From Monoglobus pectinilyticus (GTDB lineage: Bacteria > Bacillota > Clostridia > Monoglobales > Monoglobaceae): a stretch of 64,000 nt of DNA. The DNA lies in contig NZ_CP020991.1 in NCBI RefSeq assembly GCF_002874775.1, forward strand, positions 186,001-250,000, given 5' to 3'. Numbering within the stretch: the stretch's first letter is position 1; each line of letters begins with the position of its first letter. Of the stretch, positions 7,919 to 20,631 are shown one piece after another. Made by a program: the position numbers and the translations under genes. Below the pieces are notes generated by a model, which saw nothing but the letters and a program-made list of their open reading frames with translations, did no database searches and was not told the DNA's origin.

Positions 7919-7969
7919 CAGCTTGCAAAAGTCATATAAAATGAGATTTGAAAGGATTAGAGACTAATT

Positions 7970-9208
7970 ATGATGAAATGTAACTTCATGTTTGCTAAAA
8001 ATTCAAAGGCATATTCTGTCTACCTGCTGTTCCGATTTGTCTGTTCCCTGGCGGTTTCTATGTCCACAGTGCTTTCCATCGTGTACCACCTGGAGGTGGT
8101 GCAGCTGGATGCTTTCCAGCTTGTCCTGGTAGGGACGGTTCTGGAGACCTCCTGCTTTCTGTTCGAGATACCCACCGGTGTGGTGGCGGATTTGTATAGC
8201 CGTCGGCGCTCGGTGCTGATTGGAATGTTCCTCTACGGCCTGGGCTTTCTGATGGAGGGTGCGCTACCGTGGTTCGCGCCGGTTCTGCTGGCCCAGGTTG
8301 TCTGGGGTTGCGGTGATACCTTCATCACCGGCGCTCTGGAGGCGTGGATTGCCTCGGAGGAAGAGGACAAACCCATAGACAAGGTGTTCCTGCGGGGCAG
8401 TCAAATGGGGCAAATCGGCGGCGTTCTGGGCGTGGTGCTGGGCACACTGCTGGGAAACATAAACCTGCAAATGCCTCTCATCTTGGGGGGCAGTTTGTGC
8501 TTGTTGTTGGGGCTGGTGTTGGGTCGCATCATGCCAGAAACCAACTTCTCCCCTGCTATTGAGGAACGGCAGGGCTTGCTTAAAGACTTTGTCTGCCTGT
8601 TCAAGCTCAACCTGGGCTTTGTGAAAGGCGCACCTGTGTTGCTGGCGCTCTTAGCAATCACACTATGCGGGGGACTTGCCAGTGAAGGCTTTGACCGGCT
8701 CTCCACCGCTCATTTTCTGGATGACACGGTAATACCCGTTATCGGGCCGCTGAACAGCGTCACTTGGTTCGGTGTTATCAGTCTTATCGGCAGCGGCTTA
8801 GGTATTCTGGCTTCTCAGTTGCTCATCGCCCGCATGGAGAAAAAAGGGACTGTCAGCCGAACCAGTGTGGTCATGTCCACCAGCGCCGGGTATATCCTGT
8901 GCCTGGTTCTCTTCGCGGTGGGGCGGAGCTTTTGGTTCATGTTGTTGGTGTTCCTGCTGGCGGGGCTTATGCGCACCATCAAGGAGCCTGTGCTGGCCGC
9001 CTGGATGAACGACCATGTGGATGAGAAAATGCGCGCCACAGTCTTTTCCACCAGCGGACAGCTGGACTCTTTCGGGCAGATCATCGGCGGGCCTATTGTG
9101 GGGCTGGTAGCCCAGCAGGTGTCCATACCCTGGGGGCTGGTCTGTACCGCTTTCCTGCTGTTGCCCGCGCTGTTCTTAGTGCCGGTGGCGGGAAAGAAGC
9201 GGGATTGA
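7970..9208 (+). CDS. tet(40): Tetracycline efflux MFS transporter Tet(40)
   Basis: 412 residues from the first ATG; a second in-frame ATG at 7988 gives the 406 residues I recall for Tet(40). The protein has about twelve hydrophobic segments, the MFS loop motif DLYSRRRSVLIG after TM2, and a start MFAKNSKAYSVYLLFRFVCS matching Tet(40). It should export tetracycline by proton antiport at the membrane. tet(40) directly downstream of tet(O/32/O) is a known arrangement from gut clostridia. Base composition is clearly more GC-rich than tet(O/32/O) and the chromosome, marking a separate origin. A strong hairpin terminator follows. Confidence 0.93.
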   Translation: MMKCNFMFAKNSKAYSVYLLFRFVCSLAVSMSTVLSIVYHLEVVQLDAFQLVLVGTVLETSCFLFEIPTGVVADLYSRRRSVLIGMFLYGLGFLMEGALPWFAPVLLAQVVWGCGDTFITGALEAWIASEEEDKPIDKVFLRGSQMGQIGGVLGVVLGTLLGNINLQMPLILGGSLCLLLGLVLGRIMPETNFSPAIEERQGLLKDFVCLFKLNLGFVKGAPVLLALLAITLCGGLASEGFDRLSTAHFLDDTVIPVIGPLNSVTWFGVISLIGSGLGILASQLLIARMEKKGTVSRTSVVMSTSAGYILCLVLFAVGRSFWFMLLVFLLAGLMRTIKEPVLAAWMNDHVDEKMRATVFSTSGQLDSFGQIIGGPIVGLVAQQVSIPWGLVCTAFLLLPALFLVPVAGKKRD

Positions 9209-9229
9209 TATGGCATAGTTAAGTTTACT

Positions 9230-9262
9230 GACGAGCGGGAGATTACTTCCGCTCGTCTTCAT
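9230..9262 (+). terminator. Terminator after tet(40)
   Basis: GACGAGCGG (9230-9238) pairs perfectly with CCGCTCGTC (9249-9257), followed by TTCATTT. The stem starts 22 bases after the tet(40) stop. Confidence 0.75.
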
Positions 9263-9447
9263 TTAGTAGCGCAAAATTTGAGGACTCTTTATTTCCTTAT
9301 TCGGTATAGCGGAGGCGGCTGTCAATTCGACATAATTTTCTTGTGATACTTTACCGTACATGAGCATTTGTTTCGTATTTGAAAGAACAAACTCACCAAA
9401 TAAAAAAAACGATATTCGGGTGGGTTATTTTGTTATACCCTAAATTA

Positions 9448-9485
9448 CCCTCTGAATTTGTTTTTAAATTTGGAGGGATTTTTTT
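9448..9485 (+). terminator. Terminator-like hairpin in long leader of sigma-like gene
   Basis: CCCTCTGAATTT (9448-9459) pairs with AAATTTGGAGGG (9466-9477) with two G.U pairs, followed by ATTTTTTTA. The gene-free stretch 9209-9804 holds this hairpin, a second terminator at 9661-9696 and a ribosome-binding-site hairpin at 9760-9795. Confidence 0.7.
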
Positions 9486-9660
9486 ATGTCCTTTTTTCGG
9501 GCAGTTATCTATCTGCTCATACGAAGCAAAATTTATCAATACATAGCATATCAGAGAACGGCAGGAAACCAGTTAAAAAAATTTCTGCCAGTGCAACGGT
9601 ACTTCTCACCTTGAAAGTAGAAGTACAATCTCCATACAATAGAATTACTATTTCCTATAA

Positions 9661-9696
9661 CCGTAAAGGTCACAGAGCCTTTGCGGTTTTTCTTTT
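9661..9696 (+). terminator. Second terminator-like hairpin in the leader
   Basis: CCGTAAAGG (9661-9669) pairs with CCTTTGCGG (9678-9686, one G.U) and is followed by TTTTTCTTTT. It lies about 110 bases before the sigma-like gene, so transcription reaching that gene from upstream must pass two terminator-like structures. Confidence 0.7.
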
Positions 9697-9759
9697 GTCG
9701 ATTTTTGTTGGAAAGTGCCGTAGGGCTGTTTCTGATATGCGGTGTCGTTCTCCGCCTCT

Positions 9760-9795
9760 CCATCTGGATTTTTTACATTTCAAAAATTCAGATGG
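9760..9795 (+). promoter_or_regulatory. Hairpin abutting the ribosome-binding site of the sigma-like gene
   Basis: CCATCTGGATTTTT (9760-9773) pairs over 14 bases with AAAAATTCAGATGG (9782-9795, one G.U), with a loop of 8. The stem's last G residues run into the Shine-Dalgarno GGGAGG (9794-9799), so folding would hide the ribosome-binding site. Confidence 0.65.
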
Positions 9796-9804
9796 GAGGT
9801 ATTT

Positions 9805-10317
9805 ATGGTGAAATATGCACCAAGAAAGGTATATATCAGAGAAAGTGGCGGCTATGTGGAATTATCCTACACGGAGTTCTGCCGTTGCAGGGAATCCGAC
9901 CAGACCTATATGGACAAGCTGTTTATCCCCATTCAAGGCTGTCTGCTTGAAGTCGTGAGGGAGCAATACACAGACTTCTACCGTGACAAGGAACGGTGGC
10001 GTTATCTGCAAAAATTAGATACAAAGAATAGACTGCTATCTCTCGACGGATTTACGGACAGCGAGGGGAATCCTCTGGACTTTATCACTGATGAAGCGGT
10101 GGACATTGCAGAAACCGTTGTCAATGCGGTCATGGTGGACAGGCTGAAAGCCGCCCTGCCTTTGCTGTCGGATAGTGAACAGGAGCTGATACAGGCAATC
10201 TTTTTTGACGGACTTTCCGAGCGTGAAGTCGGGGCGAGGTTGGGCATAACCCAGAGCGTTGTAAACAAACGCAAAGCCAGAATCCTAATAAAACTAAGAA
10301 AGATAATAGAAAATTAA
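9805..10317 (+). CDS. Sigma-70-like regulator of the ICE (region 4 HTH)
   Basis: 170 residues from the ATG at 9805, chosen over an upstream ATG because GGGAGGT lies 5 bases before it. The C-terminal 55 residues are a sigma region 4-like HTH (LSDSEQELIQAIFFDGLSER then EVGARLGITQSVVNKRKARI). The N-terminal part (KVYIRESGGYVELSYTEFCR) resembles Tn916-family ORF7-type sigma-like proteins, which steer transcription of transfer genes. Its long leader with two terminators and a sequestered ribosome-binding site points to tight post-initiation control. Family call is good; the promoters it serves are unknown. Confidence 0.8.
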   Translation: MVKYAPRKVYIRESGGYVELSYTEFCRCRESDQTYMDKLFIPIQGCLLEVVREQYTDFYRDKERWRYLQKLDTKNRLLSLDGFTDSEGNPLDFITDEAVDIAETVVNAVMVDRLKAALPLLSDSEQELIQAIFFDGLSEREVGARLGITQSVVNKRKARILIKLRKIIEN

Positions 10318-10331
10318 AATTTAAGGCGTTC

Positions 10332-10373
10332 AGCCCCCTTGTTTTTTCCTTTGGGAAGATGAGGGGGCTTTTC
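10332..10373 (+). terminator. Terminator between the two sigma-like genes
   Basis: AGCCCCCT (10332-10339) pairs perfectly with AGGGGGCT (10362-10369), followed by TTTCTC. The loop is 22 bases. Confidence 0.75.
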
Positions 10374-10411
10374 TCTGCCCTCTCAATCAATTCTGATTGG
10401 AGGAAGTAAGA

Positions 10412-10837
10412 ATGGCATACAACCACGGACGGGAGGACAGGAAATGGCGTATCTGGAAAGAAGCGGAGGAAAAGCTGCTGCGTGAGTGCGGCGTTGATGA
10501 AGCGACCATTGAGCAGATACGCATGGCGGACAGGGCAGACTTCAATTCCAACAGGCGGTTTTACCGATGGACGAATGACGTTGCGGAATATCTTGAGGAC
10601 ATGGCAGGCAGGGAGCGGCAGGCGGAAGTGGGTACGGTTGCGGAGTTACTGGAAGAGATTGAGAGCGAAAATCTCTATCAAGTATTAGTCACGGTGGACG
10701 GGCGTACCTTGAAAATCGTCCTGCTGAAAATGCAGGGGTATTCCACAAAGGAGATTGCCCCGCTTGTGCATTTGACGACTGGTGCCATCTATGCGAGGTT
10801 AGACCATCTGCGGAAGAAGCTGCGGAAAATTTTATAG
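10412..10837 (+). CDS. Second sigma-70-like ICE regulator
   Basis: 141 residues from the ATG at 10412, with GGAGGAAG 6 bases upstream. The C-terminus has a region 4-like HTH (LKIVLLKMQGYSTKEIAPLV then HLTTGAIYARLDHLRKKLRK). The N-terminus is charged (NHGREDRKWRIWKEAEEKLL), as in small sigma-like proteins of Tn916/Tn1549-related elements. A short perfect hairpin (CAATCA/TGATTG, 10384-10399) abuts the ribosome-binding site. A terminator separates it from the first sigma-like gene, so the two are independently gated. Target promoters are unknown. Confidence 0.72.
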   Translation: MAYNHGREDRKWRIWKEAEEKLLRECGVDEATIEQIRMADRADFNSNRRFYRWTNDVAEYLEDMAGRERQAEVGTVAELLEEIESENLYQVLVTVDGRTLKIVLLKMQGYSTKEIAPLVHLTTGAIYARLDHLRKKLRKIL

Positions 10838-10872
10838 CTTCTAAAACAGCCTGCCATCCTGCGGGCTACTGG

Positions 10873-10904
10873 GTGAGGGATGGAAATCCCCTCACTCATT
10901 TTTT
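10873..10904 (+). terminator. Terminator after second sigma-like gene
   Basis: GTGAGGGA (10873-10880) pairs with TCCCCTCAC (10887-10895, one bulge), followed by TCATTTTTT. An AGGAGG follows at once for the truncated gene at 10921. Confidence 0.7.
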
Positions 10905-10920
10905 GCAGGAGGACAACAGG

Positions 10921-10965
10921 ATGGCATACAGGGTTAAGGCATGGGAAGAACCTATGAGTCTATGA
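10921..10965 (+). pseudogene. Beheaded gene start (14 codons), cut by a rearrangement
   Basis: A good AGGAGG (10907-10912) precedes an ATG that opens MAYRVKAWEE and then runs to a TGA after four unrelated codons. A strong start site leading nowhere indicates that the body of an ICE gene was deleted when the GIY-YIG segment joined here, near 10945-10952. The original gene is not identifiable. Confidence 0.4.
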
Positions 10966-11411
10966 TGGAGGAACTGGAAGTAATAGAAATTCTTTCTACT
11001 GCTTATGATGGTGACGAATTTCCGGGTTATGAGAACATAAGATTGAGTTTTTCACAACTGGAAACGATTATTCGGAATAAACGCAGCGGTTGGCTTGATG
11101 CTTTGAGAAATCAAAAAGCAGTTTATCTTATAACTGATACCAGCAACGGAAAAATGTATGTTGGCTCGGCAACTGCTCAGTATGGAATGTTGCTTCAAAG
11201 GTGGACTAACTATATAGACAATGGACACGGTGGGAATGTTGAACTTAAACATATTGTTGACACCAAAGGGTTTGATTATATAAAAGCAAATTTTCAGTAT
11301 TCAGTATTAGAAAACTATAACGCACGAATGGATGATAATTACATACTGAGTCGTGAAAAATGGTGGAAAGATACCCTTTGCACAAGACAATTCGGATATA
11401 ATAAAAACTGA
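10941..11411 (+). CDS. GIY-YIG nuclease-like protein, possibly with altered N-terminus
   Basis: 156 residues. The C-terminal 100 residues fit a GIY-YIG family protein: AVYLITDTSNGKMYVGSAT contains the paired strands with the key Tyr and Gly, followed by RWTNYIDNGHGGN and a late SREKWWKDTLCTRQFGYNKN with a candidate catalytic Glu. The N-terminal 50 residues (DEFPGYENIRLSFSQLETII) match the lead-in of longer relatives, so the front of the protein seems lost at the junction at about 10945. No good ribosome-binding site precedes the ATG at 10941. It could be a defence or cargo gene; activity is uncertain. Confidence 0.6.
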   Translation: MGRTYESMMEELEVIEILSTAYDGDEFPGYENIRLSFSQLETIIRNKRSGWLDALRNQKAVYLITDTSNGKMYVGSATAQYGMLLQRWTNYIDNGHGGNVELKHIVDTKGFDYIKANFQYSVLENYNARMDDNYILSREKWWKDTLCTRQFGYNKN

Positions 11412-11420
11412 TAAAAATTA

Positions 11421-11465
11421 GACCGTCAGATCTCATTCGAGACTTGACGGTCTTATATTTTTTTA
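11421..11465. terminator. Bidirectional terminator between convergent genes
   Basis: GACCGTCA (11421-11428) pairs perfectly with TGACGGTC (11445-11452). T-runs follow on both strands (TTATATTTTTTT forward; TAATTTTTATC reverse). It lies between the GIY-YIG gene and the reverse-strand ImmA gene, whose stop is at 11453. Confidence 0.85.
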
Positions 11466-11986
11466 CTGTATTTAAGAAAATCGTTTTGGTGTTCCTGTTT
11501 GCGAAGTTGATAGCCTTGTGCAATCAGCGTATCTACTTTCAGAGCAATTAGGTTTATGTCGGAACACATTGCCCGTGCAATCTGCTGAATGTCATAGCCG
11601 TTTTCAATGTATTCCAAAATGGTGTCGTCCGGGAGCGAAGCCTGAGAAGCGAAGATATTTGCTTCATACTCCATACGGTTCTCTCTCATATCAAAGATGT
11701 TGAACTCTTTGAACCCGCCGACAGCAACCGCTTCTTGCCTGTGGAGAACATCGTGTCCGATTTCGTGCCATAGCACTATCTGTTCCACGACCGGGTGCAT
11801 ACCGTTTTTAAGGAAAACAAAGCGGTTCTTCAGAATGACCTTGTATGCTCCACGCTGCTTTTCAAAATCTCGGTAGATAATATTGATACCAAGCTCTTTT
11901 GCGACCTTGTACGGGTCACGAGTACCGCAACGGTCAATGAGCTTGTTGACGATTTTCACAATTTCAGCCGTAGTGTAATACCCCAA
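11453..11986 (-). CDS. ImmA/IrrE-family metallopeptidase partnered with an XRE repressor
   Basis: 177 residues. The zinc-metalloprotease signature HEIGHDVLH is present, with a downstream YEANIFASQASLPDD that supplies the third ligand region typical of ImmA. In ICEBs1-like elements ImmA cleaves the XRE repressor ImmR to derepress excision and transfer. Here it lies 100 bases downstream of an XRE repressor gene on the same strand, the same partnership. The start has CAGGTGAGC a few bases upstream. Family call is firm; that its substrate is the adjacent repressor is inferred. Confidence 0.88.
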   Translation of the reverse strand: MGYYTTAEIVKIVNKLIDRCGTRDPYKVAKELGINIIYRDFEKQRGAYKVILKNRFVFLKNGMHPVVEQIVLWHEIGHDVLHRQEAVAVGGFKEFNIFDMRENRMEYEANIFASQASLPDDTILEYIENGYDIQQIARAMCSDINLIALKVDTLIAQGYQLRKQEHQNDFLKYSKKI

Positions 11987-12086
11987 TCCGGCTCACCTCC
12001 CATATTATAGTATATCGGATATTTACCCTATAATAAATTATAAACTATTGTGTGTCCCATATATTGGACTTAGTTCACTGTGAGGA

Positions 12087-12497
12087 TTACTCGTCTTTGC
12101 GGTATTTCTTCGGGGTGTATTTTTTATTGTTCTTCTTTGCAATAAGATATGCTTCCTGAATAGCGTCAACCATTTCACGCATATCTTCGTCAGCCATTTC
12201 GCCGCCGGCAAACAGACCGGTAACTTCTGCAAGCAACTCCTGAGCCTGTCTTGCCCCTCTGCGTCCGTATTTATCCTCTACATCGGCGATGAAAGCGTCA
12301 TCCTCAGACAGCAGATAATTCACATTTACATTTAATGCTTCTGCCAGCTTCTTGTATCTTTCCGTTCCTCTCGGACGGGATTTATCATTTTCATAAGAAC
12401 AAATTACACGTCGGGTTACGCCTATTTTTTCAGCCAATTCATCCTGATTAAGACCGAGTTTAGTCCTCTCTGCTTTGACTTTTTCACCGAATGTCAT
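12087..12497 (-). CDS. XRE-family repressor (ImmR-like)
   Basis: 136 residues from ATG 12497; a GTG at 12509 would overlap its own AAGGAG site and is less likely. Residues 1-65 form an XRE helix-turn-helix (GLNQDELAEKIGVTRRVICS then YENDKSRPRG), followed by a Glu/Lys-rich C-terminal half that could serve as oligomerization region and ImmA target. It is divergent from the Y-family polymerase operon, and the 12510-12647 spacer is full of AGTTTA-type half sites, its probable operators. It likely represses that operon and itself. Confidence 0.87.
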   Translation of the reverse strand: MTFGEKVKAERTKLGLNQDELAEKIGVTRRVICSYENDKSRPRGTERYKKLAEALNVNVNYLLSEDDAFIADVEDKYGRRGARQAQELLAEVTGLFAGGEMADEDMREMVDAIQEAYLIAKKNNKKYTPKKYRKDE

Positions 12498-12527
12498 CTT
12501 TGATTTCACTCCTTAAAAGAATATTTA

Positions 12528-12619
12528 CAGTTTAACTTCTCATTTACTCTTGACAAGTACACTTAAACTGCGTATAATAAGAAACAGGAAGTTGAACTAC
12601 TCATAGTTTACACTAAACT
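12528..12619. promoter_or_regulatory. Operator cluster (AGTTTA/TAAACT sites) in divergent intergenic region
   Basis: Four related sites are visible: CAGTTTAA at 12528-12535, TTAAACTG at 12563-12570, a weaker GTTGAACTA near 12591-12599, and the perfect palindrome AGTTTACACTAAACT at 12605-12619. The second lies inside the promoter spacer, and the palindrome lies between promoter and gene. This layout suits an XRE repressor binding as dimers. Binding itself is inferred. Confidence 0.65.
12550..12578 (+). promoter_or_regulatory. Consensus promoter of Y-family polymerase operon
   Basis: TTGACA (12550-12555) and TATAAT (12573-12578) with a 17-base spacer, matching the vegetative consensus exactly. 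A TTAAACTG half site occupies the spacer. No Firmicute LexA (DinR) box is visible, so control is probably through the XRE/ImmA pair rather than LexA. Confidence 0.88.
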
Positions 12620-12647
12620 TCCCAAAATGTCAAGGGGGGTTCAAAAA

Positions 12648-13883
12648 ATGTTACGAAGCATACTTCATTGTGATATGAACAACTTCTATGCCAGCGTCGA
12701 ATGTATGCTCGACCCCGCATTGAAGAAATATCCGATTGCTGTCTGCGGCTCTGTGGAGGAACGACACGGTATCGTGCTTGCAAAGAACTACAAAGCAAAG
12801 GCTTTTGATGTGAAAACCGGGGACGCAGTATGGCAGGCTAAACAGAAGTGCAAGGACTTGGTTGTAGTGCCGCCCCATTATGAGGAGTATATCAAATACT
12901 CAAAGCTTGCGAGAAGCGTTTATGAGCGATATACCGACCAAGTTGAACCGTATGGTATGGACGAGTGTTGGCTGGATATTAGCGGGACAGAAAGCCTTTT
13001 CGGTTCGCCGGAAAAGGTGGCAAATGAAATTCGTGAAACGATGAAGTTTGAACTCGGCTTGACGATTTCTGTGGGTGTTTCCTTTAATAAGATATTTGCG
13101 AAGCTCGGCTCGGATATGAAGAAACCGGACGCAGTAACCGTTATACCAAAGGATACATTCAAAGAAAAGATTTGGGGACTTCCTGCCGCTGACCTGCTCG
13201 GTGTAGGACGGGCAACCCAGCGAGTGCTTGACAGCTATTGTATTCGTACCATCGGGGATTTAGCGAATAACGACCCTGAGTTCTTACGCAGAAGATTAGG
13301 AAAGAACGGAGTAGTTTTATGGAACTATGCCAACGGCAACGACCTTTCCCTTGTTGCCAAGAAAGACTTCGTTTCTCCTATAAAAAGTGTAGGACACGGT
13401 ATAACAACAGTAGCAGATTTAGAGAAACCGGAGCAGGTGTGGCCCGTGTTTCTCGAATTAACCCAAGACATCGGACACAAGCTCCGTGTTCACGGACTGA
13501 GTGCAGAAGGTGTCGCAATACATATTAGAGACAACACGCTCAATACAAGGCAATGGCAGACGAAGATTGCACTTCCTACACAGTCTCCGATGATTATTGC
13601 AAAGACCGCTTTTCAGTTGTTTGAAAAAAGATATGGGTGGAATAACCCTATCCGTTCTGTGACAGTACAAGCCATAAATCTTATTCCACAAGACACGCCC
13701 CGTCAAATAGATATGTTTATGGACGCCGCAAAGCAGGACAAATTGGAGCGAATGGAAAAGTGTGTTGAAGAAATCAGACGGCGTTTCGGAAAGGACAGCA
13801 TAAGGAATGGGGTTCTGTGTCAGAACTTGCGGCTACCACCGGAAAAAGCCGAAATCACTATGCCGACAGGTATGGTTGGTTAA
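12648..13883 (+). CDS. Y-family translesion DNA polymerase (DinB/UmuC type)
   Basis: 411 residues from ATG 12648; AAGGGGGG lies 8 bases upstream, so the ATG at 12627 is rejected. Catalytic landmarks are visible: ILHCDMNNFYASVE with the first metal-binding Asp, YGMDECWLDISG with the Asp-Glu pair of the palm, and a SVGVSFNKIFAKLGSDMKKP stretch followed by a helix-hairpin-helix LLGVGRATQRVL. The C-terminal QIDMF stretch (about residues 350-354) could be a beta-clamp-binding motif. Such enzymes copy damaged DNA with low fidelity. It heads an operon controlled by the consensus promoter and candidate XRE operators. ICE copies may act during single-stranded transfer or under DNA damage. Confidence 0.9.
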   Translation: MLRSILHCDMNNFYASVECMLDPALKKYPIAVCGSVEERHGIVLAKNYKAKAFDVKTGDAVWQAKQKCKDLVVVPPHYEEYIKYSKLARSVYERYTDQVEPYGMDECWLDISGTESLFGSPEKVANEIRETMKFELGLTISVGVSFNKIFAKLGSDMKKPDAVTVIPKDTFKEKIWGLPAADLLGVGRATQRVLDSYCIRTIGDLANNDPEFLRRRLGKNGVVLWNYANGNDLSLVAKKDFVSPIKSVGHGITTVADLEKPEQVWPVFLELTQDIGHKLRVHGLSAEGVAIHIRDNTLNTRQWQTKIALPTQSPMIIAKTAFQLFEKRYGWNNPIRSVTVQAINLIPQDTPRQIDMFMDAAKQDKLERMEKCVEEIRRRFGKDSIRNGVLCQNLRLPPEKAEITMPTGMVG

Positions 13884-13895
13884 GGAGGTCTAAAT

Positions 13896-14195
13896 GTGAT
13901 TGACGAAAAAGAGGTTACGGCTTATGTTACGATGCCCGACTGCTTTTTGCAGGGGTGCAGCGAAGATATTGTTATCTTTCGTGCGGACGGCGGAAACCAT
14001 TTTACCGACTACGGTATATATGAGGGAATGTTTCTTTTCTTTGACCGGAAAAAACGCTTTAAGAAAGGAAGGCTTTCCTGTTACATCAATACTGCCGGAG
14101 ATGACCGACCCAAGTACAGGGTGTCGGATAAGAACATCGACGGATACAAGCACTTGGGAAGATTAGTTTTGACTTTGAGAAATTACGAGGAATAA
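13896..14195 (+). CDS. S24/UmuD-like protein lacking the catalytic serine
   Basis: 99 residues, GTG start at 13896 with AAGGAGG 7 bases upstream; the nearby ATG at 13894 is out of frame and meets TGA at once. The pattern FRADGGNHFTDYGIYEGMFL then FFDRKKRFKKGRLSCYIN, and a late LGRLVL, follows the LexA/UmuD S24 fold (GDSM...GIxDGDxVxVDR), but the position of the nucleophilic Ser is Asn-His here. I infer a non-cleaving UmuD-like accessory subunit for the polymerase encoded 12 bases upstream. The fold call is by eye and needs structure prediction. Confidence 0.5.
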   Translation: MIDEKEVTAYVTMPDCFLQGCSEDIVIFRADGGNHFTDYGIYEGMFLFFDRKKRFKKGRLSCYINTAGDDRPKYRVSDKNIDGYKHLGRLVLTLRNYEE

Positions 14196-14197
14196 AA

Positions 14198-14449
14198 ATG
14201 GAATCCGAAAGAAGAAAAGTTTATGTTGAAGTAAATGTAACACATAGACCTGATGGAACGGCTCGTCCGAACTTCATCAAGTTTGAGAATGATGAAAAAT
14301 ATGAGATAGACCGTGTAATTCAGAAATGCCGTGCGGCTTCCACCAAAGTCGGAGGAACCGGTATCCGCTACACGGTACAGATTTGCGGCAAGCCCACATT
14401 TCTGTTCGACGAAGAAAACGGAAAGTGGTTTGTAGAAGCAAAATCCTAA
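14198..14449 (+). CDS. Small conserved protein of Y-family polymerase operons
   Basis: 83 residues, starting 2 bases after the previous stop. The core (KVYVEVNVTHRPDGTARPNF, KYEIDRVIQKCRAAS, GGTGIRYTVQICGKPTFLFD) matches by memory a small beta-rich family of unknown function found next to DinB-like genes in Firmicutes. No signal peptide or catalytic motif is seen. Tight spacing on both sides marks it as part of the polymerase operon. It could be a polymerase accessory factor. Confidence 0.65.
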   Translation: MESERRKVYVEVNVTHRPDGTARPNFIKFENDEKYEIDRVIQKCRAASTKVGGTGIRYTVQICGKPTFLFDEENGKWFVEAKS

Positions 14450-14468
14450 TGGTAGGAGGTTTTGTAAC

Positions 14469-15200
14469 TTGAAACATTTATCGAGATTTGACATCGAAGC
14501 GATTGCCGACAAGTATGTTCAGGCATATATGGCACTTCCCGATGTCCGTAACACACAAATATACAGAATTGACCCGGAGCTTCTCTTGGAGAAGGTTCTC
14601 GGATTGAATGTCGAATACCAGCACCTATCTTATGACGGTAGTATTCTCGGAATGACCTCATTTACGGAAATGGGTGTTCAGGTATTTGAAGATGATGATA
14701 ACGAAGCCTTTTTCTTTTTGGATGGAAAAACCGTTCTCGTGGAAAAGGACTTGAACTTTGACAGCAAGCTGAAAGGCAGAAAGAATTTCACCTTAATGCA
14801 CGAGGGCAGCCATCAGATATTTAAGATGTTGTTCCCGAATGATTACGGTGTGACACAGAAATCTGCCGGAGTACATTATTACAAGGCAAATTCCGAGAGA
14901 AATAAGCCTATATCCGATTGGGAGGAATGGCAGGCAAATACGCTTGGAGCTGCTATCCTTCTTCCCGAAAACCTTATAAAGCAGGGAATGTATCTGTTCA
15001 GTCTTGGAGAAAAGATTGAGTGTCTGAACAAAATATACTATCCGAGCGTATATAAGAGATTTGATGCACTTGCGGATTTTTTAGGGTGTTCCAAAAAAGC
15101 ACTTGCTATACGAATGAAACAGCTCGGACTTTTGAAAAAGGAGTATCTTGATAATCCTTTTGATTTGGTTACGGTTTATCCGGAGGTGAGCGAGCTATGA
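14469..15200 (+). CDS. Second ImmA/IrrE-like metallopeptidase, in polymerase operon
   Basis: 243 residues from a TTG at 14469, with TAGGAGGT 8 bases upstream. The zinc motif HEGSH sits in FTLMHEGSHQIFKMLF, and the downstream EEWQANTLGAAILLPENLI supplies the Glu ligand region, as in ImmA/IrrE. The C-terminal part has an HTH-like stretch (ALADFLGCSKKALAIRMKQL). It is distinct in sequence from the ImmA at 11453-11986. Its place in the operon suggests feedback on a repressor once the operon is induced. Substrate unknown. Confidence 0.82.
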   Translation: MKHLSRFDIEAIADKYVQAYMALPDVRNTQIYRIDPELLLEKVLGLNVEYQHLSYDGSILGMTSFTEMGVQVFEDDDNEAFFFLDGKTVLVEKDLNFDSKLKGRKNFTLMHEGSHQIFKMLFPNDYGVTQKSAGVHYYKANSERNKPISDWEEWQANTLGAAILLPENLIKQGMYLFSLGEKIECLNKIYYPSVYKRFDALADFLGCSKKALAIRMKQLGLLKKEYLDNPFDLVTVYPEVSEL

Positions 15201-15394
15201 AATCGTTGGAACAAAAGATAATCGTAAGGTGCAAAAACTGTGGCTGGCGTATTTTTGACAAGGTAACAATGACAACAGGCGTGATTGAACTGAAATGTCC
15301 GAACTGCCACAGAGTAGTAGAGGTTGACCTATCCCTACGCAAGGGAACAGTCAAGTACAGATTAACAAGAAGTAGTAACAGAGCGAACAATTAA
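15197..15394 (+). CDS. Small zinc-ribbon protein (Com-like)
   Basis: 65 residues; its ATG overlaps the preceding TGA (ATGA), so translation is coupled. IVRCKNCGWRIFDK and LKCPNCHRVVEVD provide two CxxC pairs forming a zinc ribbon, as in phage Mu Com-like translational regulators. The C-terminal tail is basic, consistent with nucleic-acid binding. It is last in the polymerase operon; a terminator begins about 60 bases later. Function is not known. Confidence 0.7.
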   Translation: MKSLEQKIIVRCKNCGWRIFDKVTMTTGVIELKCPNCHRVVEVDLSLRKGTVKYRLTRSSNRANN

Positions 15395-15454
15395 ATATCG
15401 GACAGATGTACCGAGCCACGAGTCCTTGAGCGAAAGCTCTTGAGTCATCAAATT

Positions 15455-15514
15455 GCCGGACGCTGAGAATTAAGGGATAGAAATATCCTAATGTTCTTGG
15501 TGTCCGGCTTTTTT
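15455..15514 (+). terminator. Terminator of Y-family polymerase operon
   Basis: GCCGGAC (15455-15461) pairs with GTCCGGC (15502-15508), followed by TTTTTTG. The interior also pairs (AGAA/TTCT and GGATA/TATCC), giving a long composite hairpin. A short GAGCgaaaGCTC hairpin precedes it near 15428-15439. Confidence 0.85.
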
Positions 15515-15578
15515 GTCGCTCCCGAAAGGAGCAAGACCGTGACATATAAGTGGCTGGCGTATATCGCCAAGTATCCGT

Positions 15579-15632
15579 AATCTCCGAATTTTTGATTTCA
15601 ACCAAATTCAAAAATTCAAATTTAAGGAGATT
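15579..15632 (+). promoter_or_regulatory. Hairpin sequestering the ribosome-binding site of the sigma-like gene
   Basis: AATCTCC (15579-15585) pairs with GGAGATT (15626-15632), which contains the Shine-Dalgarno. The inner GAATTTTTGA (15586-15595) pairs with TCAAAAATTC (15608-15617). A further TGGCG/CGCCA hairpin lies upstream (15554-15569). Folding would hide the ribosome-binding site of the gene at 15639. Confidence 0.7.
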
Positions 15633-15638
15633 ACGACA

Positions 15639-16178
15639 ATGACAAAACTTACATTAGAACAACAGGAATTATTATTTGCGAACGACTGCAAGCTCATTAA
15701 CCTGCGGTATGAATATCACGGCTACACCGGCACGGAGAAATGGGCGATTGTAACAGAACTGGCGGAAGAAGAATTGTGGGTTAAATACCCTGATGTTATC
15801 CGTCGGTACACTCCGTTCATTCTGCTTTCTATGGCTCAGGGCGAAGTGATAACGGAGTATCAGAACTACGAAGCAAGAGAGAGAATGAGAAGGCTTCTTT
15901 TCGGACACGCATTTGACATCAATGACGGAGAATTTGAAGTGCATCATCCGGAATTGGCAGTCGATACAGACCCAATCGAAGAAATAATGCTGAAAGACAA
16001 TATTAAGCGACTTCGGGAGGTTTTGTGTTACTTAAGCGAAACACAGAAACGCAGAGTTTTTAAGTATTTCTTCTACAACAAAACACTTGAAAAAATCGCA
16101 GATGAAGAAGGAGTCGATTTTACTTCTGTAAGGGAATCGGTAAACAGTGCAATAAAAAAGTTGAGGAAATTTTTCTAA
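15639..16178 (+). CDS. Sigma-70-like protein (third ICE regulator)
   Basis: 179 residues. The C-terminus is a region 4-like HTH (YLSETQKRRVFKYFFYNKTL then EKIADEEGVDFTSVRESVNS). The N-terminal 100 residues resemble the sigma-like proteins found near integrases of clostridial ICEs (ELAEEELWVKYPDVIRRYTP). The ATG is 7 bases after GGAGATT, which is locked in a hairpin. It precedes the mazF-like and excisionase-like genes and probably controls the recombination end of the element. Target promoters unknown. Confidence 0.75.
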   Translation: MTKLTLEQQELLFANDCKLINLRYEYHGYTGTEKWAIVTELAEEELWVKYPDVIRRYTPFILLSMAQGEVITEYQNYEARERMRRLLFGHAFDINDGEFEVHHPELAVDTDPIEEIMLKDNIKRLREVLCYLSETQKRRVFKYFFYNKTLEKIADEEGVDFTSVRESVNSAIKKLRKFF

Positions 16179-16278
16179 AACACCCCCCAAAAACGCTCTC
16201 CCATTTCAAACAAGTGAAGGGGTTAATTCTAATCCGGATATGAATTACCTCAGAATAATCGAAAGCGAGGATTTACAT

Positions 16279-16857
16279 ATGAAAGAAAAAGAATTTAAGA
16301 ATGTCAGATGGGGCGATATTTATTACTGCGACTTGGGGGTTACAAACGGTAGTGTGCAATCGGGAATGAGACCGGTTCTTGTGGTTCAGACAAATCGCTT
16401 AAATGAAAGCAGTCCTACGGTCGTTGTAGCCGCTATAACGGCTGTTAAAAAGAAAACGGCAATGAATACTCATATTGAGCTAAACACGGATTGTGGCTTA
16501 AAAGAGCCGTCGATGGTAATGCTTGAGCAGCTACGCACCGTGGATAAAGCCACAGAGCTTGATAATTTTGTCGGAAGAATTACCGACGCAGATAAAATCA
16601 GCGAAATCAAGCGAGGATTGAAATTTGCAGTCGGTATTCCCGTTAAACCCAAGACAGAGCGTAAAGGCATTGTACTAAGTCTTTGCCCTCGTTGCAGAAG
16701 CGAGTTTCAGTCTATCCCTGAAAACATTGTAAAAAGACTTGACCCCTTTCAGGCAGATAAAGAGATGTGCGATAAATGTCAGGTAGGATACGGCTATGAC
16801 TATATGATTTTCAAAAAGAACCATCATCACGCTAAGGGAGGTGTTGACAATGTTTGA
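16279..16857 (+). CDS. MazF/PemK-like protein with C-terminal zinc ribbon
   Basis: 192 residues from ATG 16279, chosen over 16240 because GAGG sits 8 bases upstream and the MazF domain begins directly (VRWGDIYYCDLG). The MazF core is complete: GSVQSGMRPVLVVQTN, VVVAAITAVKKK, THIELNT ... LKEPSMVMLEQLRTVDK. Canonical MazF is an mRNA endoribonuclease. Residues after about 130 add a zinc ribbon (LCPRC ... CDKC) not found in canonical MazF. No antitoxin gene lies upstream; the next gene overlaps it by 8 bases and encodes an excisionase-like HTH. It may be a regulator or RNA-binding derivative rather than a classic toxin. Confidence 0.82.
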   Translation: MKEKEFKNVRWGDIYYCDLGVTNGSVQSGMRPVLVVQTNRLNESSPTVVVAAITAVKKKTAMNTHIELNTDCGLKEPSMVMLEQLRTVDKATELDNFVGRITDADKISEIKRGLKFAVGIPVKPKTERKGIVLSLCPRCRSEFQSIPENIVKRLDPFQADKEMCDKCQVGYGYDYMIFKKNHHHAKGGVDNV

Positions 16858-17110
16858 AGATAAGATTGAAGCAATGAACAAACTACCCAACGCTGTTGAT
16901 GATAGTTCCGGCTTTGAGAAAAGAGTTTATACGGTAGAAGAAATAATGGATATTCTCAGCATTGGAAAGAACACTGCTTATGCTCTCGTCAACTCAGGCG
17001 TTTTCCATTTTGTAAAGGTCGGCGGACATTACAGAATTTCCAAGAAGAGCTTTGACCGATGGCTTGATAATATGGACAGCGAAAGCTCCGGTTGTCAATT
17101 ATGCGATTAA
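16850..17110 (+). CDS. Excisionase-like HTH protein 1
   Basis: 86 residues from ATG 16850, with GGGAGG 8 bases upstream, overlapping the mazF-like gene by 8 bases. A single HTH_17/excisionase winged-helix domain spans residues about 27-74: YTVEEIMDILSIGKNTAYAL then VNSGVFHFVKVGGHYRISKK and SFDRWLDN. Such proteins bend DNA at attachment sites or act as regulators. It is the first of six homologous domains in four genes before the integrase. The last codons form one arm of an 8-bp hairpin. Confidence 0.82.
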   Translation: MFEDKIEAMNKLPNAVDDSSGFEKRVYTVEEIMDILSIGKNTAYALVNSGVFHFVKVGGHYRISKKSFDRWLDNMDSESSGCQLCD

Positions 17111-17207
17111 ACCAATCGCATAATTAACAAAAACTCCGATTTTCAGTACCATATAGCCAAGTCACTTGGCTATATGGTAGTCAGAGTGGCAAATAAGAAA
17201 TCGGGGG
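17101..17207 (+). promoter_or_regulatory. Structured leader with a 33-bp perfect palindrome
   Basis: Three nested structures are visible. ATGCGATT/AATCGCAT (17101-17108 and 17114-17121) spans the stop of the previous gene. A perfect palindrome runs from 17147 to 17179 (16-bp arms around a single C). An outer stem pairs CTCCGATTT (17134-17142) with AAATCGGGG (17198-17206), which includes the ribosome-binding site of the next gene. No T-run follows, so it is not a terminator. It may be a translational switch in RNA or a binding site in DNA for excisionase-type proteins. Confidence 0.7.
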
Positions 17208-17216
17208 TAAACGGTA

Positions 17217-17468
17217 ATGCGAAAGAAAATTGAAAAGAGCGATACTCGACTTCCTAATACATTCAGGCAGACTGAACCTGATATACGAGCATACACGGTA
17301 GATGATATACAGCACATCTTGAAAGTGAGCAGAACTACCGTCTATGAGCTGCTTAAAAGCAAGAAATTCCATAGCGTTCGTGTCGGAGGTCAATATCGAA
17401 TATCTAAAAAGAGCTTTGAAAATTGGCTCAATGGCGAGAAAGGAGGTTCTGAAGATGGCATTTGTTAA
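17217..17468 (+). CDS. Excisionase-like HTH protein 2
   Basis: 83 residues. One HTH_17-type domain (YTVDDIQHILKVSRTTVYEL then LKSKKFHSVRVGGQYRISKK and SFENWLNG) closely resembles that of protein 1, including the shared YRISKKSF wing. The first 25 residues are charged and probably flexible. The ribosome-binding site GGGGG is part of the nested hairpin upstream. Its end overlaps the next gene by 14 bases. Likely DNA-binding; role in excision is inferred from position. Confidence 0.82.
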   Translation: MRKKIEKSDTRLPNTFRQTEPDIRAYTVDDIQHILKVSRTTVYELLKSKKFHSVRVGGQYRISKKSFENWLNGEKGGSEDGIC

Positions 17469-18156
17469 TATGTTCAATGACCGAGTGGAGCAGTTTAATC
17501 TCAGAGAGGAAAATGAACGCTTGGCAGAATTGTTCAGCGATGAAAAGCTTCAGGAGGAAGCACAGTGGCAAGCCTATTCTGTCAAGGAAATATCTCGGTT
17601 GTTTTCCATTTCCGAAGAAGAAGCACTGAAACTGATGAATTGCGGCTTATTCAAAACATACCGAGTCGGCAACGAATACAGAGCTTCAAAGAAAAGCGTT
17701 GAAGAAAATAAGAAAATCGTCAAGGCAGTTCTTACATATCAGGACAAAAAGACAATGTCTGTACCCGACGTAATGAGAATACTCGGTCTTGGAAAGACGG
17801 CTACATACCGACTCATCAATCAGTGCCGATTTAAGACCTATTTGGTACTGGGCAAAATGAGAGTTGATGTGGATAGCTTTGAAGATTGGTATGCAGGACA
17901 ATTCCATTATGAGAAAGTAAACGGCGAAAGACCCGGTAAGAAATACGGCAAAACGCTCTCTCCTCTTACTGTTGCAAAGGTACTCGGCATTCCGAGAAGC
18001 ACCGCAAATGACCTTATGAACGATGGCATTGTTGAGTTTATATGGGTTGACGGTAAACGCCGAATAAAAAGAGAAAGCTTTGATAAGTGGTACGCTTCGC
18101 AAAGTAAATACACTAAAGTTAAGGAAATCGAGGAGGTGGAGGGATATGTCGATTGA
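17455..18156 (+). CDS. Triple excisionase-like HTH protein
   Basis: 233 residues from ATG 17455 (AAAGGAGG 7 bases upstream; the longer frame is rejected). Three related HTH_17-type domains occur in a row: YSVKEISRLFSISEEEALKL (about 40-85), MSVPDVMRILGLGKTATYRL (about 101-145) and LSPLTVAKVLGIPRSTANDL (about 165-210), the last two ending in the SFDKWY/SFEDWY signature. Tandem duplication of an excisionase unit explains this. A protein with three DNA-binding units could bridge several sites at the element end. It overlaps both neighbours by 11-14 bases, implying coupled translation. Confidence 0.8.
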   Translation: MAFVNMFNDRVEQFNLREENERLAELFSDEKLQEEAQWQAYSVKEISRLFSISEEEALKLMNCGLFKTYRVGNEYRASKKSVEENKKIVKAVLTYQDKKTMSVPDVMRILGLGKTATYRLINQCRFKTYLVLGKMRVDVDSFEDWYAGQFHYEKVNGERPGKKYGKTLSPLTVAKVLGIPRSTANDLMNDGIVEFIWVDGKRRIKRESFDKWYASQSKYTKVKEIEEVEGYVD

Positions 18157-18352
18157 GGATAGAGTTCGTGAATTAAACGGCGGTACATATACAAAAAAGA
18201 GCTATTCCGTAGAGGAAGTTCAGTCAATCTTGGGTATTACCCGACAGACCGTATATAAGCTCATCAAACAGGGGTGTTTTCAGGCAGTAATGCTCGAAAC
18301 CGGATACCGCATAATAAAGACCAGCTTTGATAAATGGCTGGATAATGAATAA
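18146..18352 (+). CDS. Excisionase (Xis-like), adjacent to integrase
   Basis: 68 residues from ATG 18146, with GGAGGTGGAGGG just upstream, overlapping the triple-domain gene by 11 bases. A single HTH_17 domain (YSVEEVQSILGITRQTVYKL then IKQGCFQAVMLETGYRIIKT and SFDKWLDN) makes up nearly the whole protein, the usual Xis size and position directly before int. It most likely provides directionality to the integrase in excision. Confidence 0.85.
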   Translation: MSIEDRVRELNGGTYTKKSYSVEEVQSILGITRQTVYKLIKQGCFQAVMLETGYRIIKTSFDKWLDNE

Positions 18353-18364
18353 GGAGGAACGACT

Positions 18365-19828
18365 ATGGCTTCTATTGTAAAGAGAAAGAATCGATATTCC
18401 GTCGTTTATACCTACAAAGACGATGACGGAAACCAACATCAAAAATGGGAAACCTTTGATACAAACGCAGACGCTAAAAAGAGAAAAACTCAAATTGAGT
18501 TTGAACAGCAAAGCGGTACATTCATCATTCCTAATGCTACGACAGTTGCGGATTTGCTTGAAGAATACTGCTCCGTGTACGGAGTAAATAACTGGGCAAT
18601 GTCAACCTACCGTTCAAAGAAAGGGCTTATGTATAATTACATCATTCCGCTTATCGGCGATGTGAAACTTGATGAACTGACTCCGAGACTTATGGATAAA
18701 TTCTATCAAAGCCTTCTGAAAGTTAAGACCAAAGTGGTACAGAATAAAAAGCCTAAAAATGAGTATCTGACCGTACATACCGTAAGAGAAATCCATAAGT
18801 TTTTAAGGAGTGCCTTTAATCAGGCGGTAAAATGGGAGTTGATGACAAGAAACCCGGTTCTCAATGCAACGCTCCCGAAAGAGGAACATCAGAAACGAGA
18901 AATATGGACAGCAGAAACTCTTATGCACGCTCTTGAAGTGTGCGATGATGATATTCTCGCATTAGCCATCAATTTATCCTTTGCCTGTTCACTCCGTATG
19001 GGTGAAATGCTCGGTCTTACTTGGGATTGCATTGATATTTCGGAGGAAAGCCTGAAAGAAAACAACGCTTCCATTTTTGTAGATAAAGAGCTTCAGCGAG
19101 TAAACAGAGATGTAATGGAGGTGCTTGATAATAAGGACATTATCCGTGTCTTTCCGAGAACTCTGTCAAATACAAATACCTCCCTTGTTTTGAAAACGCC
19201 AAAAACTAAAACAAGTGTGAGAAAAATCTTCTTGCCGTCAACCGTAGCTCAAATGCTGTTAGAGAGAAAAAAGCAGATTGACGAAATGAAAGAGCTTTTC
19301 GGTGATGAGTATTTGGATTATGACTTGGTATTCTGCCATTCGTCAGGCAGACCGATGGAAGGTCAGGTAATCAACCGTGCTTTGAAAAAGCTGATACAGG
19401 ACAACGACTTACCCGATGTGGTATTTCACAGCTTCCGTCACGCAAGTATAACCTACAAGCTGAAATGGAACGGCGGCGATATGAAATCGGTTCAAGGCGA
19501 CTCAGGACACGCCCGAATGGATATGGTTGCCGATGTTTACAGCCATATAATCGACGAGGACAGGCGATATAACGCACAGAAGTTTGAGGAACAGTTCTAC
19601 AACGCTAAAGGTCTCAAAAATGCGGAAGAAGGTAAAACTGCTCCAATGCCCAAGTTTGAAACTTCGGTTGAACTCCTTGACCCAATGGCAGAGGTTCAAA
19701 AAGAGAGCGAAGTTGAAAAAGAAAAGCCTGCTGAGAACAGTACAGATGAAAACGCCGCCTTGCTCACAAAACTGTTATCAAATCCGGAAACAGCAGCATT
19801 ATTAAAGGCTTTAGCGAAAACAATTTAG
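18365..19828 (+). CDS. int: ICE tyrosine integrase
   Basis: 487 residues; AAGGAGG lies 8 bases before ATG 18365. An Arm-type DNA-binding N-terminus (KRKNRYSVVYTYKDDDGNQH) is followed by a SAM-like core-binding domain and a catalytic domain. Catalytic residues are visible in SLRMGEMLGLTW (Arg), VVFHSFRHASITY (His-x-x-Arg), GHARMDMVADVYSH (His and the Tyr nucleophile). The last 70 residues form an unusual Glu/Lys-rich tail (ENAALLTKLLSNPETAALLK). The gene points at the tRNA-like attachment site 350 bases downstream, the usual position for an ICE integrase. Confidence 0.93.
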   Translation: MASIVKRKNRYSVVYTYKDDDGNQHQKWETFDTNADAKKRKTQIEFEQQSGTFIIPNATTVADLLEEYCSVYGVNNWAMSTYRSKKGLMYNYIIPLIGDVKLDELTPRLMDKFYQSLLKVKTKVVQNKKPKNEYLTVHTVREIHKFLRSAFNQAVKWELMTRNPVLNATLPKEEHQKREIWTAETLMHALEVCDDDILALAINLSFACSLRMGEMLGLTWDCIDISEESLKENNASIFVDKELQRVNRDVMEVLDNKDIIRVFPRTLSNTNTSLVLKTPKTKTSVRKIFLPSTVAQMLLERKKQIDEMKELFGDEYLDYDLVFCHSSGRPMEGQVINRALKKLIQDNDLPDVVFHSFRHASITYKLKWNGGDMKSVQGDSGHARMDMVADVYSHIIDEDRRYNAQKFEEQFYNAKGLKNAEEGKTAPMPKFETSVELLDPMAEVQKESEVEKEKPAENSTDENAALLTKLLSNPETAALLKALAKTI

Positions 19829-19835
19829 TCATACA

Positions 19836-19868
19836 AAAAAGGCAATCCGTCAGGGTTGCCTTTTGTAA
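19836..19868 (+). terminator. Terminator after int
   Basis: AAAAGGCAA pairs with GTTGCCTTTT around a short loop, followed by GTAATT. It begins about 10 bases after the integrase stop. Beyond it, 19870-20160 has no gene; it holds an inverted pair CCTGCTAA (20033-20040) / TTAGCAGG (20066-20073) that may be an integrase or excisionase arm site. Confidence 0.75.
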
Positions 19869-20176
19869 TTCCTGAAAAATCTTGAAATCAAGAAGAAAAA
19901 CCATTATAATATTTGAACACAGATTATTGATTTGCATAAGAGAATGCGTAAACTTCAAATGCGTTTCCTGTGATTTATGGGCTACAGATTAACTCAATGA
20001 TGTTTCCCATATTTCTTTGCATTTGCTAATACCCTGCTAAAAGGAAGGCAAAAAACCACGAAAAATTAGCAGGTTTTGGACGAGAATTTACTAACAGTGA
20101 AATCCCAGAAAAGCCAGTAAAATCAAGGATTTTCGGGGATTTGTAGGGAGTCAAAAATGCCCCTCGGGGGCTTCTC

Positions 20177-20218
20177 CTAAGGGCTAGTCACGTGTTCGAC
20201 TCACGTAGAGGGTGCCAA
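20177..20218 (+). other. ICE attachment site: 3' end of a tRNA gene (probably tRNA-Arg)
   Basis: ACGTG (20191-20195), loop TTCGACT, and CACGT (20203-20207) form a perfect T-arm with the conserved TTC. It is followed by AGAGGGT, discriminator G and CCA (20216-20218), exactly a tRNA 3' end. Just upstream, CTCCTAA suits an anticodon loop with CCU, but the sequence further 5' does not fold into a D-arm or pair as an acceptor stem. So only the 3' fragment is present. This is the usual scar of integration into a tRNA gene; the restored full gene should lie at the other ICE end. Isotype is tentative. Confidence 0.75.
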
Positions 20219-20248
20219 ACGCCGTATAAATACGGCGTTTTTGTTTTG
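20219..20248 (+). terminator. Terminator of the tRNA gene
   Basis: AACGCCGTA (20219-20227) pairs perfectly with TACGGCGTT (20232-20240), followed by TTTTGTTTT. It directly follows the CCA and marks the first chromosomal sequence beyond the ICE. Confidence 0.88.
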
Positions 20249-20255
20249 AATAATA

Positions 20256-20313
20256 AAATGCACCTTTATTGCCGATGTAATAAAACTATCGTATCAATAA
20301 AAAGTGCATTTTA
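20256..20313. terminator. Hairpin between tRNA fragment and coat protein gene
   Basis: AAAATGCAC (20256-20264) pairs with GTGCATTTT (20305-20313), and inner TTTATTG/CAATAAA also pairs. It lies just downstream of the reverse-strand coat gene and may end its transcript, though no strong T-run follows on the reverse strand. Confidence 0.5.
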
Positions 20314-20332
20314 TCATTATTTATATATTTTT

Positions 20333-20581: not shown

Positions 20582-20631
20582 ATTATTTTCATCCTTTCTC
20601 TGTTAACGAGTTCATCAATAATAGCGCTATG

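Follow-up and report, generated by a model that had tools for sequence, protein, structure and literature searches.

The stretch analysed here (the window) comprises 64,000 nucleotides, positions 186001–250000 of a 2.76-Mb Clostridia chromosome, and contains a five-gene operon headed by a Y-family DNA polymerase on what appears to be an integrative and conjugative element (ICE). The polymerase gene is followed by two small genes, here called g2 and g3, a metallopeptidase gene (immA2) and a zinc ribbon gene, and it faces a divergent gene pair for an XRE-family repressor and a further metallopeptidase (ImmA1). The features, in window coordinates, are:

11453–11986, minus strand: ImmA1, an M78 (ImmA/IrrE) metallopeptidase, 3' of the XRE gene (Pfam Peptidase_M78, 1.2e-12; HEIGH motif)
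12087–12497, minus strand: XRE-family repressor (Pfam HTH_3, 8.9e-12)
12498–12647: switch region between the XRE and polymerase genes
12529–12537: operator-like AGTTTAACT
12550–12578, plus strand: polymerase promoter TTGACA-N17-TATAAT, 12/12, with a putative operator half-site in its spacer
12564–12569: operator-like TAAACT inside the polymerase-promoter spacer
12590–12598: operator-like AGTTGAACT
12605–12633, minus strand: facing promoter for the XRE gene, TTGACA-N17-TAAACT, 10/12
12605–12619: operator-like palindrome AGTTTA-N3-TAAACT, overlapping the facing promoter
12648–13883, plus strand: Y-family DNA polymerase, 411 amino acids (Pfam IMS, 3.4e-44)
13896–14195, plus strand: g2, best read as an S24 (LexA/UmuD) C-domain relative without catalytic serine or cleavage site (profile comparison and alignment)
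14198–14449, plus strand: g3, an 83-amino-acid protein, probable standalone ImuB-C (profile comparison and neighbours)
14469–15200, plus strand: ImmA2, a second M78-type metallopeptidase, HEGSH at residue 111 (PHROG metallo-protease, 1.2e-8)
15197–15394, plus strand: zinc ribbon protein with two CxxC pairs (PHROG gpCom, 6.3e-5)
15455–15514, plus strand: terminator hairpin and T run

The genes named in an earlier note on this DNA (the polymerase, g2, a small protein, an ImmA-like protein, the zinc ribbon and the divergent XRE/ImmA pair) are all present where it had placed them, with two starts revised. By the RefSeq annotation of a near-identical copy in Monoglobus, the polymerase probably begins at 12648 and not at 12627, and the equivalent start of the XRE gene is 12497 where the list of open reading frames had 12509. 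ImmA2 scores below the family cut-off against Pfam M78 (E 0.0032), while a relative in L128 reaches 2.2e-7. The polymerase promoter, described in that note as perfect, matches the consensus at every position, and the AGTTTA-type sites it reported are there: AGTTTA or TAAACT occurs four times in the switch region (at 12529, 12564, 12605 and 12614), a number matched by 2 of 60 shuffles, and we regard these copies as putative, operator-like sites. The strong terminator claimed for the end of the operon is likewise borne out by folding, with a 16-bp stem (15455–15508) followed by TTTTTT and a predicted energy of −42.4 kcal/mol for 15440–15530 (z −7.2; 0 of 200 shuffles equally low); a simple terminator scan restricted to loops of 3–8 returned 0 terminators.

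A g2 profile scan of the genome contig collection returned 17 loci, among others from Acetivibrio, Suipraeoptans, Faecalicatena, Pseudoflavonifractor, Hominifimenecus (two on one contig), Caproiciproducens, Lacrimispora and Faecalibacillus (Erysipelotrichia). At all 17 genome loci g2 lies immediately behind the polymerase, one polymerase being broken, and 16 have the divergent XRE/ImmA pair, the 17th (L092) ending at the contig edge. The survey proposed in the earlier note thus finds its five-gene order (polymerase, g2, g3, immA2, zinc ribbon) kept at 15 of the 17 loci; since the same genes recur elsewhere in the same order, the operon is real and conserved and not a product of chance. The two remaining loci (L094 and L095) gave no immA2 or zinc ribbon by profiles, so these two genes are not obligatory; L076, a close relative of both, has a different zinc-ribbon reading frame behind g3. 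The conserved order therefore stands, but the widely conserved partner of the polymerase is g3, a point that the earlier note had overlooked. Profile searches placed g2 only in two related lineages of the operon and on one stray viral contig, and no relative turned up when viral contigs were scanned with individual g2 or g3 sequences. Polymerases split into two frames were seen in L095 (8723–9954) and L034 (8358–9605), and a g2 relative with 44% identity that keeps the GGNHF motif lies near recombinase genes at L097:3434–3721.

Control of the operon was assessed by the presence of an SOS-like site upstream of the polymerase, defined as GAAC-N4-GTTC with at most one mismatch, which letter shuffles yield at 4–5%. 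The window has no such site. Under one rule applied to four locus sets and the window, the site was found at 29 of 35 polymerases without XRE/ImmA (20 exact) and at 2 of 32 with it (0 exact), where the 32 include many near-copies of this element and a further 12 polymerases (2 with and 10 without XRE/ImmA) were not testable. In hand-picked sets, again with near-copies and with guessed starts for L046, L057 and L152, it was found in 28 of 29 polymerase–g3 loci without XRE/ImmA (21 exact; 29 of 31 loci testable) and in 1 of 13 XRE-linked loci (0 exact; 13 of 16 testable). The one-rule count is weaker than the hand-picked one and the contrast persists, and because it does so our confidence in the readings given below was left as it was. 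These counts support the presence of XRE/ImmA in place of an SOS box, in line with the putative LexA-independent control claimed earlier.

The XRE-linked switch regions share a layout of facing promoters. Among 19 hand-picked regions, which include near-copies, 17 have a consensus promoter of at least 11/12 toward the polymerase or g3 and 15 have a facing XRE-gene promoter of at least 10/12; in the 17 regions analysed further (L071 and L095, which deviate from this layout, being omitted) the −10 boxes are 27–36 bp apart. Shuffles often match both promoters in some regions (L093, 9 of 30; L040, 10 of 30; L071, 4 of 30; L095, 3 of 30). The half-site repeats vary between loci; in 9 of 17 regions, including the window, they exceed what shuffles give (at most 3 of 60 reach them), and we read this set as one in which the repressors probably changed operators while the promoter layout stayed. 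In gut phages L077, L078, L145 and L150, xre, immA1 and g3 lie together and divergent from a polymerase, behind which come a second small helix-turn-helix gene and an immA2 relative.

The window polymerase has intact catalytic motifs (CDMNNFYASVE and GMDEC) and is closer to Pol IV-type models than to UmuC. Its C-terminal part carries a clamp motif, QIDMF, and, by motif reading, a motif resembling the RecA N-terminus (RecA-NT-like), EEIRRRFGKDSI, to be compared with GQIEKQFGKGSI of E. coli RecA; among 76 polymerase rows, 42 matched a strict RecA-NT pattern and 56 a strict clamp pattern. In a polymerase tree from which near-copies, L095 and reading frames of fewer than 350 amino acids were omitted, one 20-row clade (98/100) contains 12 of the 14 labelled XRE-linked polymerases; of the other two, L036 is excluded from it with modest support and L040 sits next to UmuC at the end of a very long branch. 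A single clade of all XRE-linked polymerases was rejected, as three changes are needed.

Of 391 Clostridia genomes, 58 have a relative of g3, among them the genome of the window. Neighbourhoods were counted at 40 genome loci (part of the g3 places, G076 being the same element), at all 37 viral loci and at all 17 g2 loci. The polymerase lies directly 5' of g3 at 31 of the 40 genome loci and 8 of the 37 viral loci, and divergently at 10 more viral loci, under an adjacency rule that misses L044, whose polymerase lies nearby. Comparison of the g3 profile with DUF6504 gave P 2.5e-5 with a score of 30.7 in one direction and P 4.9e-4 with a score of 24.6 in the other, where 59 shuffles averaged 11.3 and peaked at 22.3. 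In a small set, the DUF6504 protein right behind the polymerase in L211 reached E 5.7e-4 against the g3 profile, and two other DUF6504 proteins gave E 0.049 and 0.27. Of 299 genomes from the phylum, 76 have DUF6504. The domain lies behind Y-family polymerases at 8 of 20 loci read and has a match in Caulobacter, which possesses ImuB, and would thus correspond to ImuB-C. We also take DUF955 to be the present M78 (ImmA/IrrE) family. A conserved C-terminal tryptophan is present in g3, g3 lies beside LexA in one genome (L065) and beside M78 too, and one plasmid has Ku and ligase genes on the opposite strand, a few kb from g3.

A conserved C-terminal tryptophan is also described for ImuB-C (Aravind et al. 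2013, PMC3765255), and the neighbours of standalone ImuB-C given in that paper are a polymerase, Ku and ligase, SplB-like radical SAM, LexA and a DUF955 metallopeptidase. Two further surveys couple ImuB-C to YqjH-type polymerases, mostly in Clostridia (Timinskas and Venclovas 2019, PMC6511836), and count ImuB-C-associated PolYs among putative complexes (a 2026 survey, PMC12926913). On profile and neighbourhood grounds g3 is probably a standalone ImuB-C. The polymerase and g3 form a known kind of module, because their association and the neighbours of g3 match published ones, and the association of ImuB-C with an M78 protease is likewise published. Other assignments and sources were dropped: g3 as a YolD relative, as no YolD was among the matches listed in Pfam scans of 44, 34 and 7 g2/g3 members; S. 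meliloti pSymB as an ImuB-C source, as it has no DUF6504; and a D. deserti stretch, where the cassette was not seen. On viral contigs, g3 also occurs next to Ku (L130, L135, L136) or radical SAM (L132, just below the Pfam cut-off), with no polymerase match within these four fetched stretches.

For g2, an S24-type ancestry had been claimed, and profile comparison supports it. Against a set of six LexA-like S24 domains of relatives and E. coli UmuD, the g2 profile aligned over 58 collinear columns (probability 91.7%, P 7.8e-7, score 40.7), while 100 column shuffles scored 12.1 on average and 20.0 at most. Searched over 391 Clostridia genomes, the profile gave one place off the element with E < 1e-3, L167 (E 1e-4), a 241-amino-acid repressor of LexA-like build that combines a winged-helix part with an S24 domain (Pfam S24, 1.1e-19). 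The alignment sets RADGGNHFTDYGIYEG over RAS-GDSMEDRGIYDG, with the serine replaced and one residue extra, and the serine position reads Asn-His in 20 of 20 g2 rows (10 distinct) and likewise in L097, as the earlier note had read it in the window. A lysine aligned with the dyad lysine is present in the window g2 (K73) and absent in L097, the most distant homologue; the Ser–Lys dyad of UmuD is lacking in g2. The UmuD cleavage bond is C24-G25; the window g2 begins 3–4 residues past it, approximately at the start of UmuD', and this alignment start, with no cleavage site ahead, agrees with the proposal of a form that needs no cleavage. The g2 form of L094 and L076 has about 11 extra N-terminal residues, and some 20 residues of the later S24 domain are missing from g2. 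Taken together, the sequence of g2 is best read as that of a LexA/UmuD C-domain that is catalytically dead and short by nature.

These observations are, in our view, reasonably likely to describe a mutasome operon on an ICE, repressed by XRE and relieved by ImmA, from which polymerase, ImuB-C and a dead UmuD'-like subunit would be made to work with RecA; binding, cleavage, induction, mutagenesis and the role of g2 are the parts of this account that we infer. The XRE protein would hold the facing XRE and polymerase promoters down until a signal, possibly DNA damage via RecA as for ICEBs1, led ImmA1 to cleave it and the operon to fire. The polymerase would then act with RecA, through its RecA-NT-like tail, and with ImuB-C and g2 as small subunits, g2 working like UmuD' with cleavage unnecessary. 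ImmA2 could prolong the on-state or cleave another repressor; it and the zinc ribbon are treated as modulators because both vary between relatives. In hosts that lack LexA or have a different one, a likely use would be to bypass or fill in lesions, under stress or while single strands are transferred, in the DNA of either the element or the host.

Several known systems come close to such an operon. The PolY and standalone ImuB-C (plus RecA) mutasomes of Clostridia YqjH subgroups likewise have an active polymerase with a RecA-NT-like motif followed by an ImuB-C-type protein (PMC6511836, PMC12926913), whereas here a putative XRE/ImmA switch takes the place of the SOS box, g2, an M78 protease and a zinc ribbon are added, and the operon lies on an ICE. 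ImuB-C and zincin metallopeptidase genes stand side by side in PMC3765255 as they do here, but a serine-less S24 relative and a facing-promoter switch are not mentioned in the text available from that paper. HumD of phage P1 is an already shortened UmuD (PMC7092418), and UmuD' and HumD, like g2, are shortened S24-type partners, found on a mobile element, for which cleavage is not needed; unlike UmuD' of E. coli Pol V and HumD, g2 has lost the catalytic serine and about 20 domain residues and accompanies a polymerase nearer to Pol IV. Pairing of an XRE repressor gene with an M78 protease (HExxH) gene on an ICE is known from ImmR/ImmA of ICEBs1 and TnSmu1, where repression by XRE and its relief by ImmA after damage are reported and proposed, respectively (PMC10233336), and an XRE–M78 pair, DdrO/IrrE, runs a LexA-independent DNA damage response in Deinococcus (PMC8072749). 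An XRE regulator of a damage response is also the subject of PMC12288472. In contrast to ICEBs1, TnSmu1 and Deinococcus, the putative divergent target here is a mutagenic polymerase operon with its own second M78 protease. The YqjW/UvrX–YolD systems of Bacilli also combine a Y-family polymerase, often prophage-borne, with a small beta-rich partner (PMC6511836), but the g2 and g3 members gave no YolD match in the Pfam scans. The polymerase–ImuB-C module and the type of switch are thus already known and the control arrangement is the new part: the operon is a new combination of known module, known switch and dead UmuD-like subunit. Among the matches listed, no XRE/ImmA-run polymerase operon was recognised in literature titles and abstract openings, and none of these joined ICE, Y-family DNA polymerase and ImmA.

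Several results weigh against the mutasome account. Neither Pfam, NCBIfam, PHROGs nor PDB sequences gave g2 or g3 a name above threshold, and there was no Pfam S24 match among g2 members. Against a wider S24 set the g2 profile reached a probability of 23.3% (P 8.8e-4), and in reverse 4.1% (P 0.01; maximum of 60 shuffles 20.7); the LexA-like/UmuD subset was picked after this result. The comparison of g2 with g3, intended as a negative, scored 21.0; in view of this score and the weak wide-S24 result, scores of about 20–25 say little on their own. The window g3 has no DUF6504 match at the curated cut-off, and DUF6504 was matched by 2 of 34 g3 members (best E 0.026). The L097 g2 has no polymerase on its 4.6-kb contig. 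In the control comparison, L037 and L084 are XRE-linked and have a one-mismatch SOS-like site, 6 of the 35 loci without XRE/ImmA have no site (L045, L061, L162, phage L079, L143 and L158), L292 and L293, in which XRE/ImmA is present, have three one-mismatch sites each, and the operator-like 6-mers do no better than shuffles in 8 of 17 regions.

The alternative that survives best, although we think it unlikely, keeps the ancestry of g2 and changes its role: its dead C-domain would pair with repressors of the host (LexA, UmuD-like or CI-like), blocking or tuning their self-cleavage, and g2 would be a tool against SOS or prophages that shares no more than the operon with the polymerase. LexA and UmuD C-domains dimerise, and g2 is closest to these very domains; moreover, it is absent by profiles from polymerase–g3 loci beyond the operon's own lineages, and in L097 it stands apart from any polymerase on a short contig. 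Such a decoy is harder to reconcile with the position of g2 directly behind the polymerase at every genome locus, and with a search for the LexA DNA-binding domain that was negative in all 8 genomes of the host genus while its control was positive in E. coli and B. subtilis. The host may have a diverged LexA, because S24 proteins occur in its genome (3 matches), which is also a point for the decoy. That the resemblance of g2 to S24 is fortuitous and g2 an unrelated small protein is improbable: the family libraries and the wide S24 set would allow it, but the score over the 58 collinear columns is twice the best of 100 shuffles and the best outside match of the whole-genome profile search is an S24 repressor. 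More improbable still is an ordinary LexA-controlled polymerase–ImuB-C cassette on an ICE whose XRE/ImmA pair serves transfer genes only and is a neighbour by chance, since, common as polymerase–g3 loci with an SOS-like site are in Clostridia, the window has no SOS box, a one-mismatch site stands at just 2 of 32 XRE/ImmA-linked polymerases, XRE/ImmA is divergent at every g2 locus not cut by a contig end, and 12 of 14 labelled XRE-linked polymerases share one clade.

Extending the mutasome account, we suggest more tentatively that mobile elements, and some Clostridia without recognisable LexA, may have swapped LexA for XRE/ImmA, and that the ICE branch may have added a dead, pre-shortened UmuD-like subunit. 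On this suggestion, related polymerases would be SOS-boxed in most chromosomal polymerase–ImuB-C loci and XRE-operated from facing promoters in phages and ICEs, and the complex of polymerase, ImuB-C, pseudo-UmuD' and RecA would mix two mutasome types with no cleavage step. If true, conjugative elements that carry drug resistance would bring inducible mutagenesis on their own repressor–protease switch and not on host SOS, and would have carried this programme into Clostridia and Erysipelotrichia; a UmuD'-like subunit would work without any autocleavage, and SOS box versus XRE/ImmA would be a simple comparative test of mutasome rewiring.

A second Y-family polymerase of the host lies at L253:4370–7612 (1799369–1802611 of its own genome), with an XRE/ImmA pair upstream on the same strand. 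An orthologue of this chromosomal polymerase is present in 10 of 11 congeners; XRE and ImmA lie upstream in 8 of the 10 fetched congener stretches (L278–L287), with ImmA alone at one edge and neither in one short contig. All 11 polymerase promoters of the genus (own included) match 12/12 and lack an SOS box, and operator-like copies accompany the promoter. In the congeners, no counterpart of the triple operator at the polymerase promoter was seen at the xre promoter, so the link between XRE and the chromosomal polymerase is putative. In other genera, six stretches from five genomes (L265, L288, L289, L290, L292 and L293) have XRE/ImmA divergent from a Y-family polymerase, with no g2 or g3 in the fetched stretch.

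The carrier of the operon is, by its gene content, an ICE, because relaxase and type IV secretion genes sit upstream: the 18 kb 5' of the window encode a MobA/VirD2-type relaxase, a type IV coupling protein and a TraG/VirB4-like ATPase. A tyrosine integrase gene lies at 18365–19828 of the window. The copy in Monoglobus pectinilyticus strain TSDC17.2-1.2 corresponds to window positions 6179–22450 (99.67% over 16,272 bases), including flank past the integrase, which makes the host this species or one very close to it. An Rfam scan of 9000–20500 found no known RNA element at gathering score. Other cargo in the window includes sigma-like factors, a GIY-YIG gene by annotation of the Monoglobus copy, and a PemK/MazF-like gene with a C-terminal extension (16240–16857) that is followed by small helix-turn-helix genes and the integrase. 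The element also carries two tetracycline resistance genes (5999–9208), one for ribosomal protection (TetM/W/O/S-type) and one tet(40), and an IS481-family-like transposase gene lies at 4612–5550 on the minus strand. Before the window, a gene for an 1845-amino-acid methylase-helicase protein (L295:19–5556) adjoins the relaxase region of the element.

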